Source: Theodoxus fluviatilis (taxonomy: Eukaryota > Mollusca > Gastropoda > Cycloneritida > Neritidae). From it: DNA of 64,000 bases. Below, piece after piece: positions 53,036 to 58,437 of the stretch. Each line of letters begins with the position of its first letter. Positions within the stretch are counted from its first letter, which is position 1. Position numbers and translations under genes: made by a program. The stretch lies in the NCBI GenBank assembly GCA_034096865.1, contig JAWQFJ010017544.1, positions 61,463 through 125,462 of the forward strand, in the 5' to 3' direction. The notes below the pieces were generated by a model. The model worked only from the letters and a program-made list of their open reading frames with translations, had not been told where the DNA came from and searched no databases.

Positions 53036-53535
53036 GGACAGGGAGATAGACAGTGAGAGAGACAGAGAGAGAGACACACTGAGAGAGAGAGAGAGACAGG
53101 GAGAGGGAGAGAGACAGAGAGAAAGTCAGGGAGAAAGACAGTGAGAGAGAGAGACAGAGAGAGCGACACACTGAGAGTGAGAGAGACAGAGAGAGACAGG
53201 GAGAGGGAGAGAGACAGAGAGAAAGACAGGGAGAAAGACAGTGAGAGAGAGACACAGAGAGAGAGACAGAGAGAGAGAGAAAGAGAGAGAGACAGAGAGA
53301 GAGGGAGAAGGACAGGGAGAGAGACAGGGAGAAAGACAGTGAGAGAGACAGGGAGAAAGACAGGGAGAGAGAGAGAGACAGAGAGAGAGACAGAGAGAGA
53401 GACAGGGAGAAAGAGAGAGACAGAGAGAGACGGAGAGAGACATAGAGAGCCACAGGGAGAGAGAGAAGACAGGGAGAGAGACACAGAGAAAGAGAGAGAC
53501 ACAGAGAACGAACGAACGAACGAACAAACGAACGA
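53036..53535 (+). repeat. GA / GACA microsatellite plus (GAAC)n LINE tail
   Basis: About 470 bp GA-rich with GGGA and GACA units, then (CGAA)n at 53509-53540, which is the tetranucleotide tail of LINE fragment A on the minus strand. Confidence 0.96.
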
Positions 53536-54903
53536 ACGAATGGTTTATTGGTTAGGCCACGGGCCTATCACAACTACAAAATTGAATCATCTGCAGCAGT
53601 AATCTGTACAGCATCTTGTCTTCACTTAAATGCATAGTACATATATATACATAGCCAATGCACGTATTGTTCCGAAGTCCTGTGAGGACAATAAAATTCC
53701 CAGTTCTTCTCTTATTACGTGTTACTGAGTATTGAGGCATATTTCTCTCTTAGGTCTTCATACACTGGACAAACAAGGAGAAAGTGCACTTCACAGTCAA
53801 CTTCTTCTCTGCAAGTGTGGCGTATATGTATATAATTTATCTGAGCCATCGTTGTTACATCTGAATTTATGGATGTACAGTTCACTAAATCCTGCCCGGA
53901 AGCTGATGAAAACGTCTCTAAAGGGCTTTTTATCTAGAGCAATTAAATAATTTTCTTTCATCCAGATAGGTTTTATTGTCCTATAAAAACTGTATATTTC
54001 ACTATTTTCTAAGACCATGGACCACTCAGCTTTAAAGTCCACGACCAGACGTCTTTTCAGCTCTCTAATGAAAGCACGCTCATTTGTCACATTTTGGTTT
54101 TCCCATACTTGTCCAAAATCATATCTGTACAGGAACTCTTTTATCTTACATGCCCAACTTCCTTGATTGTTAGAATTCAACATCATTTTGTACACCATGT
54201 TCGGGTAACGTACATTTTCCATTCTCAATAATTTCAACCAGTATCTAATTGATCGGATTATTCCATTTATACGAAGTGGATACCTTCCAGTTTCCCCATA
54301 AACGATTTTGTTTGGTGCCATAACAGGTAGGTTTAAAATCTCTTTAAGGTCTCTAAATGTACAGATTCAATGACAGAACCGTCGTAAATGCCCCAGATTT
54401 CAGAGGAATACAGCAATATGCTAACAACCTGGGCGTCAAACATTTTGAAAAATGCCTCGGGTGATAAACATTGCAACTTTCTGACACATCTAATGACTTG
54501 AGTTGCGCTAGTTTTCGCTCGCAACAAGAGGTCTGATTGAAGCATTTTGAAGGAGACTTTGGTAGTGAATAGCGACCCAAGGTATCTGTTTTCAGGGACG
54601 ATCTCTAAAACGTATTCACCTAAGTACCATCTTTCGTGTTGGGCTAAATGTCCACCATTCCTAAACACCATTATCTTAGTTTTTTCTTGATTTACCTTCA
54701 GGCCAAGTGCATCTGCTCCTTTGACAAGCGAATCAATCTGGATTTGTAACCCAACAGCTGTATCAGATACAAGCACTATATCATCCGCAAGCAGTAACGA
54801 ATACACAATAGTGTTACCAGGCATAAGTTGGATGCCGTGTTTTCCATCTCTGTTTACAATTTTAGCCACGTAGTTGACCATCAAAGAAAAAAAGTATTGG
54901 ACA
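53536..54903 (-). mobile_element. LINE fragment A, TC-flanked family
   Basis: The longest fragment of the family. On the minus strand it starts within RT at CPILFFF next to the TC tract. Then comes a 184-codon frame with SLLLADDIVLVSDTA (catalytic ADD), KVNQEKTKIMVF and PENRYLGSLF. A frameshift near 54330 leads to a 175-codon frame with NKIVYGETGRYPLRI, YDFGQVWENQNV and FISFRAGFSELYIHKFR. A last frameshift gives CEVHFLLVCPVYEDLREKY, the C-terminal Cys/His region. The 3' end has GGCCCGTGGCC, AATAAA and (TTCG)n. Clade not settled. Confidence 0.88.
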
Positions 54904-55945
54904 GAGACGGACAGAAACAGACAGAGAGAGAGAGAGAGAGAGAGAGAGAGAGATAGATAGATAGATAGATAGATAGATAGATAGATAGATAGATAGATAG
55001 ATAGATAGATAGATAGATAGATAGATAGATAGATAGATAGATAGATAGATAGATAGATAGATAGATAGATAGATAGATAGATAGATAGATAGATAGATAG
55101 ATAGATAGATAGATAGATAGATAGATAGATAGATAGATAGATAGATAGATAGATAGATAGATAGATAGATAGATAGATAGATAGATAGATAGATAGATAG
55201 ATAGATAGATAGATAGATAGATAGATAGATAGATAGATAGATAGATAGATAGATAGATAGATAGATAGATAGATAGATAGATAGATAGATAGATAGATAG
55301 ATAGATAGATAGATAGATAGATAGATAGATAGATAGATAGATAGATAGATAGATAGATAGATAGATAGATAGATATAGATAGATAGATAGATAGATAGAT
55401 AGATAGATAGATAGATAGATAGATAGATAGATAGATAGATAGATAGATAGATAGATAGATAGATAGATAGATAGATAGATAGATAGATAGATAGATAGAT
55501 AGATAGATAGATAGATAGATAGATAGATAGATAGATAGATAGATAGATAGATAGATAGATATAGATAGATAGATAGATAGATAGATAGATAGATAGATAG
55601 ATAGATAGATAGATAGATAGATAGATAGATAGATAGATAGATAGATAGATAGATAGATAGATAGATAGATAGATAGATAGATAGATAGATAGATAGATAG
55701 ATAGATAGATAGATAGATAGATAGATAGATAGATAGATAGATAGATAGATAGATAGATAGATAGATAGATAGATAGAAAGAGAGAGAGAGAGACAGAGAG
55801 ACACAGCGAGAGAGAGAGGGAGAGAGGGAGAGAGAGAGAGAGAGAGAGAGAGAGAGAGAGAGAGAGAGAGAGAGAGAGAGAATGAGACACAGAGAGAGAG
55901 AGAGAGAGGAAGAGAGAGACAGAGAGAGATTGATTGATTGATTGA
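54904..55945 (+). repeat. GATA microsatellite (about 830 bp) flanked by GA tracts
   Basis: (GA)n 54918-54951, (GATA)n 54952-55776 broken only by two GATATA slips near 55374 and 55560, then (GA)n to 55929 and (GATT)n 55930-55947, the last being the tail of LINE fragment B. The 403-codon Ser-Ile-Tyr-Leu frame is an artefact. Confidence 0.98.
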
Positions 55946-57019: not shown

Positions 57020-57772
57020 AAGAGACATAGAGAAAGAGACGGGGAGAGACAGGGAAAGAGACGGGGAGAGACAGGGAGAGAGACAGAGAGAGAGAGAGAG
57101 AAAGACAGGGAGAGAGACAGAGAGAGACAGGGAGAGAGACAGAGAGAAAGAGACAGAGAGAAAGAGATGGGGAGAGACAGGGAGAGAGACAGAGAGAGAG
57201 AAAGACAGGGAGAGAGACAGAGAGAGACAGGAAAAGAGACAGAGAGAAAGAGAGAGTGAAAGAGACAGGGGAGAGACAGGGAGAGAGACAGGGAGAGAGA
57301 GAAATACAGGGCGAGAGACAAGGAGAGAGACAGAGAGAAAGAGACAGAGAGAAAGAGACAGGGGGAGAGACAGGGAGAGAGACAGGGAGAGAGACAGGGG
57401 GAGAGACAGGGAGAGAGACAGGGAGAGAGACAGGGAGAGAGACAGGGTGAGAGACAGGGAGAGAGAGAGAAAGACAGGGGGAGAGACAGGGAGAGAGACA
57501 GGGAGAGAGACAGGGAGAGAGAGAGAAAGAGAGAGAGAAAGAGACAGGGGGAGAGACAGGGAGAGAGGCAGAGAGACAGGGAGAGAGAGAGAGAGAGAGA
57601 GAGAGGAGAGAGAGAGAGACAGAGGGAGAGATAGGGAGAGAGACAGGGAGAGAGAGAGAGAGAGAGAGAGAGACAGGGAGAGAGAGAGAGAGAGAGAGAG
57701 AGAGAGAAAGACAGGGAGAAAGACACAGAGAAAGACAGAGAGAGAGAGACAGGCAGAAAACGAACGAACGAA
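57020..57772 (+). repeat. GA / GGGA / GACA microsatellite
   Basis: About 740 bp of GA-type repeats rich in GACAGGGAGA, ending in (CGAA)n, the tail of fragment C. Confidence 0.97.
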
Positions 57773-58402
57773 TGGTTTATTGAAGAGGCCGCCGGCCTAT
57801 TTCAAATGTTTTTCTACGTGAATTGACAAGTAGCAGGATAAACAAATAAAAAGTGGTGTTCGTCTTCATCTTCCTCTCTACATAATGGACACCGTCTTTT
57901 GTGTTTCTAAGTTTATGGATATACAACTCGGTTATGCCCTTTCGAAATCCAATAAATACATCCATGAACACCTTTCTGTCAATTCTAAGTAAACACTTTT
58001 CAGCAGAAAACTCCTTTTTTATTTACATATTGAAAGAACAATTCACACTGCTACTCAGATCATTTTTTCATTGTAAGCAAATACTCTCAATCATTCTGAG
58101 TCGTTTTAAAAATACACGTTCATTATCAACGTTCTGATTTTTGCAAACATGTTCAAGGTCAAATGCTGATAAAATATTTTTCAGCTTTGAACCCCATGTT
58201 ATATAATGTGGTGGTTGATTTAGCATCATTTAATAGACTTGTCTTGGATGTCTATCGCTATCCATTCTAAAGATTTTTAGCCAATACTTAGCGCTGCGTA
58301 ATAGTAATTCAGCCTTCATGTACAAAGGGTAACGCCCTATATTTCCATAATACACTCAGTTGGGAGTTCGAGATGACACATATAGCAATGACTTGATTGC
58401 AT
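57773..58402 (-). mobile_element. LINE fragment C, TC-flanked family
   Basis: Minus strand, the most degraded fragment. Blocks seen: IKSLLYVSSRTPN, GNIGRYPLYM, SAKYWLKIFRMDSDRHPR, FIGFRKGITELYIHKLR and RRCPLCREEDEDEHHFLF, in the same order as in A and B. The 3' end has GGCCGGCGGCC, AATAAACC and (TTCG)n. The 5' side (58403-58437) is a degenerate TC-type repeat on the sense strand. Confidence 0.85.
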
Positions 58403-58437
58403 GTAGAGACAGGGAGGGAGACGTAGAGGCAGACACA

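Follow-up and report, generated by a model that had tools for sequence, protein, structure and literature searches.

The window, that is, the whole 64-kb stretch of Theodoxus fluviatilis DNA analysed here, carries several members of a LINE clade that very probably targets microsatellites: the same TC repeat, on the same strand, is found at both ends of most copies (on the 5′ side, in family A). Targeting of TC microsatellites had been proposed for a single family from a sequence-only reading of this DNA; it is supported genome-wide, but as a property of a clade that comprises many families. The five places concerned, which that reading had located correctly within a few bases of the window sequence, and the repeat tracts around them are as follows (no strand is assigned to the tracts).

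33500..33685: GA/TC tract, 3′ side of fragment D
33690..35202, minus strand: fragment D, a separate family of the clade
35204..35712: GA/TC tract, 5′ side of fragment D
50067..50473: TC tract that holds tail E, the sole TC-unit tract among the tandem repeats listed for the window
50476..50531, plus strand: tail E, the 3′ end of another family, GGGTCGTCGGCCGAAATAAA followed by (AATC)n
53043..53507: GA/TC tract, 3′ side of fragment A
53536..54903, minus strand: fragment A, a 5′-truncated LINE from the RT end to the 3′ hairpin
54904..55929: GA/TC tract, also with (GATA)n, lying 5′ of A and 3′ of B
55946..57019, minus strand: fragment B, a separate family of the same LINE clade
57021..57757: GA/TC tract, lying 5′ of B and 3′ of C
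57773..58402, minus strand: fragment C, a separate family of the clade, with a (TTCG)n tail

Fragments A, B and C share one orientation, as had been noticed, and D lies on the minus strand as well. The tails of A and B are (TTCG)n (53506–53540) and (AATC)n (about 55929–55945), respectively. The idea that A to C, together with D, represent one family was refuted, since DNA matches among the fragments are short (A/B, 74% over 99 bp; A/C, 85% over 33 bp; B/D, 80% over 44 bp), and pairwise comparison of the fragments gave no DNA match for A/D and C/D. Judged from their sequences, each of A to D belongs to its own family within one LINE clade, which makes their common TC flank more telling. Clade proteins matched the minus strand of the window at 34451–35203, 53577–54908, 56137–57028 and 57805–58484 and, more weakly, two other LINEs on the plus strand (48527–49729 and 62418–63387). 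The RVT_1 score of fragment A was 27 bits, under the curated Pfam cut-off of 29.6. The middle of fragment D probably corresponds to a nested insert, because it was not readable as a clade LINE in the frames inspected. Searches of the 64-kb window with Rfam (gathering threshold) and ARAGORN gave no match.

A GA-type repeat on the plus strand flanks both ends of fragments A to D. The presence of TC-type repeats at both ends, as originally described, is clear for A, B and D, whereas the 5′ flank of C is merely degenerate TC-type. Tail E is the sole tail on the plus strand and sits within the TC tract, so that its sense strand carries TC in spite of its opposite orientation, just as had been claimed. 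Because the only TC-unit tract listed holds the only plus-strand tail, the window obeys the strand rule; its plus strand contains 101 (GA)4+ runs versus 12 (TC)4+ runs, and a random 40-bp stretch includes (GA)4+ with a frequency of 0.041 and (TC)4+ with a frequency of 0.006. Assignment of E to the upstream LINE at 46135–49744 as its tail was rejected, since that family ends in GTAAAAATGAAAATACATAC.

This upstream LINE, which we take to be L2-like, lies on the plus strand and contains an endonuclease and an RT; in the window, GT and GA repeats truncate its 3′ part. Across the genome, copies of this LINE carry (ATAC)n tails and are surrounded by varied sequence. A third LINE, presumably Tx1-like, is found at about 59982–64000 (plus strand), with a broken ORF2 and an ORF1 that includes a zinc-knuckle-like stretch. 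Elsewhere in the window, many ORFs and tandem arrays from about 2100–17000 and 17900–31000 recur about 15–16 kb apart (for example, ORFs at 2138 and 17913, and 57-bp arrays at 5545 and 21156), a pattern that a segmental duplication would leave. A minisatellite of 2.3 kb occupies positions 38412–40715, its 42-bp units being made of 14-bp subunits.

We searched the assembly containing the window (965 Mb, 19,668 contigs) for exact matches to a tail pattern consisting of GGCCGGNGGCCT, a gap of 2–8 nt and AATAAA. There were 2108 matches (1100 forward and 1008 reverse), and none in the same assembly with the pattern read backwards. The sequence TCTCTCTC occurred within 2–32 nt after the tail in 824 of the 1100 forward matches, about a quarter of them thus being without an exact TCTCTCTC in reach; this tally is restricted to the forward strand, because the reverse figure (4159) counts several ends per tail. 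Among the first 40 tails listed by motif alone, each taken with 120 bp of 3′ flank, 29 had (TC)4+ within 70 nt and 33 had TCTC within 45 nt, against none with (GA)4+ or (GT)4+ and two with (AC)4+. One further tail (L136) also reaches TC, but past 70 nt, the flanks of L126 and L151 are merely pyrimidine-rich, and no TC run was seen on reading in L116, L119, L124 and L139; L116, L124 and L139, as well as L059, had no TC whatever.

Copies found through the body of the element gave a similar picture. The search with fragment A gave 1064 first-look candidates, of which 40 were scored, yielding 42 matches, and (TC)4+ was present in 18 of 21 recognised tails and TCTC in 20 of them; the script did not recognise nine of the 30 loci, which include contig ends, one lost tail and variant tails. 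With fragment B there were 41 matches from 40 scored of 749 candidates, and the 20 copies fetched showed (TC)4+ in 16 cases and TCTC in 19, one of them (L203) having (TGTC)n and two (L208 and L209) resembling one inverted duplicate. Fragment D found, besides itself, just relatives with 64–74% identity (40 of 116 candidates scored). Just beyond the TC run of a family B copy, L216, starts a sequence resembling the endonuclease of a different LINE (ICGDLNAR), an order that a head-to-tail array would show.

Sense-strand TC at the 3′ side of most genomic insertions, which the sequence-only reading had anticipated, was therefore seen in A-body copies, in B-body copies and in tails collected by their 3′ end alone. 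Such an association might arise by chance in a genome rich in GA/TC, or by loss of insertions made elsewhere, and GA/TC repeats are certainly common in the window. Nevertheless, GAGAGAGA followed the tail in 0 of the 2108 matches, on either strand, so antisense TC is far from equally frequent. In the L2-like LINE at 46135–49744, of another type but in the same genome, the 19 tails recognised in 21 loci showed neither (TC)4+ nor TCTC (0/19 for both) and (AC)4+ once. Moreover, copies of the clade are broken at many differing points of the element. An origin without targeting is, in consequence, extremely improbable, the 3′ association with TC being far above that of the control LINE and strand-specific genome-wide.

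The 3′ end of the clade consists of a bulged hairpin (TTGN..GGCC-nnn-GGCC..N′CAA) and a short tandem tail. Folding of the hairpin gave z-scores of −1.6 for family A (C9453 copy), −3.7 for B, −2.4 for D and −1.9 for E. The outer stem, TTGN/N′CAA, was readable in 24 of 35 distinct tails (E-type and Alviniconcha tails among them) and unreadable in 11. In 19 of these 24, the variable pair is of Watson-Crick type (T-A in 12, A-T in 5 and C-G in 2), and in two it is G-U, with tail A of the window among the five that do not fit a Watson-Crick pair; none of 10,000 permutations reached the observed level of matching, as measured by a statistic that ignores relatedness of the tails. The inner GGCC stem provides no independent evidence, because most tails were found by means of GGCC. 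The tandem unit varies between families (CGTT in 25 tails, AGTC in four and eight others once each) and includes TC in 37 of 40 tails, no unit having been read in the remaining three, while the join to TCTCTC is constant.

On the 5′ side, the 60 bp upstream of the junction were inspected in 30 family A loci, of which 16 contained (TC)4+, nine none of the tested repeats, and five were unreadable. Thus 16 of 25 readable junctions had (TC)4+, 0/25 had GA and 9/25 something else, perhaps after later rearrangement, in agreement with the original description of TC at this side too; one of these nine (L041) has GTCT/ATCT repeats. The breaks are scattered over many positions of the element, as also pointed out before for the window fragments, indicating variable 5′ truncation. 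A wider view was obtained from the sequence upstream of 20 of the first 21 tails (800 bp each, one of 525; C48, at a contig start, was omitted): (TC)5+ was found in five and (GA)5+ in none, and a clade protein in 13, which ties these tails to a clade LINE; seven had no such protein at the threshold used. In one copy (L053), TC is followed by a short inverted piece of the element and then by the element itself, a 5′ inversion as twin priming would give.

Two insertions retain target-site duplications. One (L037, likewise among the nine 5′ junctions without (TC)4+) has a 14-nt duplication, TCTCCTTTCCGTGG, at TCTC, in TC-rich non-repeat DNA. In the other (L118/L179), 16 nt are common to both sides, TTCTCTCGTGCAGTCA, although the first letters may be tail, giving a duplication of about 14–16 nt, also at TCTC; a long (TC)n lies 5′ of the duplication and outside it, which suggests that insertion took place at the border of a TC run that was already there. 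These two duplications at TCTC support the presence of (TC)n before insertion. A different origin of the repeat has been argued for lepidopteran RTE elements (PMC2887409), and would here imply that the LINE itself makes the TC run, its 3′ tail slipping during reverse transcription and seeding a microsatellite. Although the tail of the clade is indeed a slipped tandem repeat, its unit differs from TC across the sample, TC is found also 5′ of variably truncated copies, and neither the long run outside the duplication of L118/L179 nor the insertion of L037 with its duplication in non-repeat DNA fits a self-made run; we consider this origin very unlikely.

Somewhat less improbable, but still unlikely, is that a TC-rich site as short as about TCTC to TCTCTC suffices and that long runs expanded after insertion. 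Merely short TC is found at the 3′ side of L118, L125, L128, L144 and L146, and also of L037, and growth after insertion has been proposed for TA-targeting transposons of maize (PMC5907723). However, the long run beside L118/L179 indicates that long runs are hit too, and TC on both sides of most family A copies would need growth on both. Insertion into pre-existing repeats is thus our preferred explanation, and A to E are very probably 5′-truncated non-LTR copies that used target-primed reverse transcription to insert into (TC)n/(GA)n runs already present.

Within this explanation, the endonuclease of the element would nick the GA strand, leaving a primer that ends in GAGA-3′OH. This end might then anneal to TC within the RNA tail, as the TC-bearing tail units and the constant TCTCTC join suggest, and such base pairing between the nicked GA strand and an RNA tail that carries TC probably assists insertion. 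Slippage at the annealed end could give rise to tails of the (TTCG)n, (AATC)n or (GTCA)n type, and a second nick would fall about 14–16 bp downstream. Repeated hits on one tract would produce head-to-tail LINE/TC arrays such as A-B-C.

A family A copy (C9453) extends from TC tract to tail over about 3.4 kb and contains a 1000-residue open frame, with the endonuclease start in another frame. Some copies are recent, as L047 and L055 share 99.15% identity across 2825 bp. The window fragments are too short to span the endonuclease; in relatives, Pfam searches found RVT_1 in P0025, P0033 and L157, and Exo_endo_phos above the cut-off in P0025, Exo_endo_phos_2 in P0033 and a match slightly under the cut-off in L157. 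By its predicted RT and upstream endonuclease, together with 5′ truncation and target-site duplications, the clade is classed as an APE-type non-LTR retrotransposon. The Cys/His motif noticed earlier at the C-terminal end was borne out as C-x2-C-x8-H-x4-C, nearly invariant in 16 aligned proteins. In L157, an open frame (2–556) with weak coiled-coil-type Pfam hits below cut-off precedes the endonuclease/RT frame, suggesting that the full element may have two ORFs and making a single ORF doubtful as a general rule.

Scanning of prokaryote genomes identified 21 relatives, four of which (L156–L158 and L172), probably host sequence, come from the MAG of a symbiont living with the snail Alviniconcha boucheti. 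The public Sulfurimonas MAG of this snail (JAICBP01) carries animal-type LINE contigs, probably from host contamination. In L156 and L157, tail and TCTCTC are followed by an assembly gap, so that TC adjoins both of the tails that could be read beyond their end; in L158 the hairpin is GGCCGGAGGCCT and the gap starts inside the tail, and L172 showed no tail. Two further tail patterns matched only the already known tail in the Alviniconcha contigs. The relatives from this deep-sea snail thus appear to target TC likewise. Four Bathymodiolus-associated relatives are only 27–29% identical in their best segments; two (L159 and L161) have other tails, without TC, and no tail was identified in L164 and L166. 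In viral contigs, the tail pattern occurred in 31 stretches, none with a tandem tail or a TC run in the next 70 nt and all taken as chance, and the protein alignment yielded 175 pattern stretches in these contigs but no relative.

Placement of the RT in a LINE tree, which had been suggested as a check, was successful in part. Among the 40 sequences of the tree, fragment A groups with the Alviniconcha loci in a clade of 20 with a support of 86, outside of which are the Bathymodiolus group, human L1 and the L2-like and presumably Tx1-like LINEs of the window. Several deeper nodes are weak (34, 43, 51 and 51), and the lone RTE reference is an approximate BovB stretch.

The fish element Kibi, said to belong to the Tx1 lineage and to target (TC)n, would share its target with our clade. 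Waldo and Mino, R1-clade LINEs of insects, resemble the clade in their APE-type endonuclease and microsatellite target, but insert in ACAY or AC repeats instead of TC. As a kind, microsatellite-targeting LINEs are already known, and PMC4640811 describes Togen, (TG)n-specific fish LINEs related to NeSL, which likewise target a dinucleotide microsatellite but use a restriction-like endonuclease, as opposed to the Exo_endo_phos of the clade relatives. The RTE elements of Lepidoptera share with the clade an EN and RT, a very short simple-repeat 3′ UTR and many 3′ fragments adjoining microsatellites, but PMC2887409 describes them as lacking sequence-specific insertion, with a repeat of the element's own making. 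In guayule and rice, SaTar elements are also stacked side by side within microsatellites but, according to PMC5907723, they are non-autonomous MULE DNA transposons, mostly in TA repeats, and not LINEs in TC. Mollusc LINE clades are treated in PMC10294476, with no target specificity noted in the part available. No description of a TC-targeting LINE clade of molluscs was among the literature matches listed, which covered few subscription papers, and the clade looks like a new lineage of microsatellite-targeting LINEs. Tentatively, and with less confidence than not, it could be an undescribed, gastropod-wide APE-type clade outside R1 and Tx1, with a double TC specificity, from the endonuclease nick and from the TC-bearing RNA tail, for which TC microsatellites would serve as landing strips for head-to-tail LINE arrays, maybe being kept by them.

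With 2108 exact-pattern 3′ ends, diverged families sharing one target and relatives in a second snail, the clade offers many natural insertions to study, and is suited to asking how an APE-type LINE chooses a simple repeat and whether its RNA tail participates. In such genomes, TC microsatellites frequently have repeated sequence next to them, a point of importance in designing markers and in assembly.
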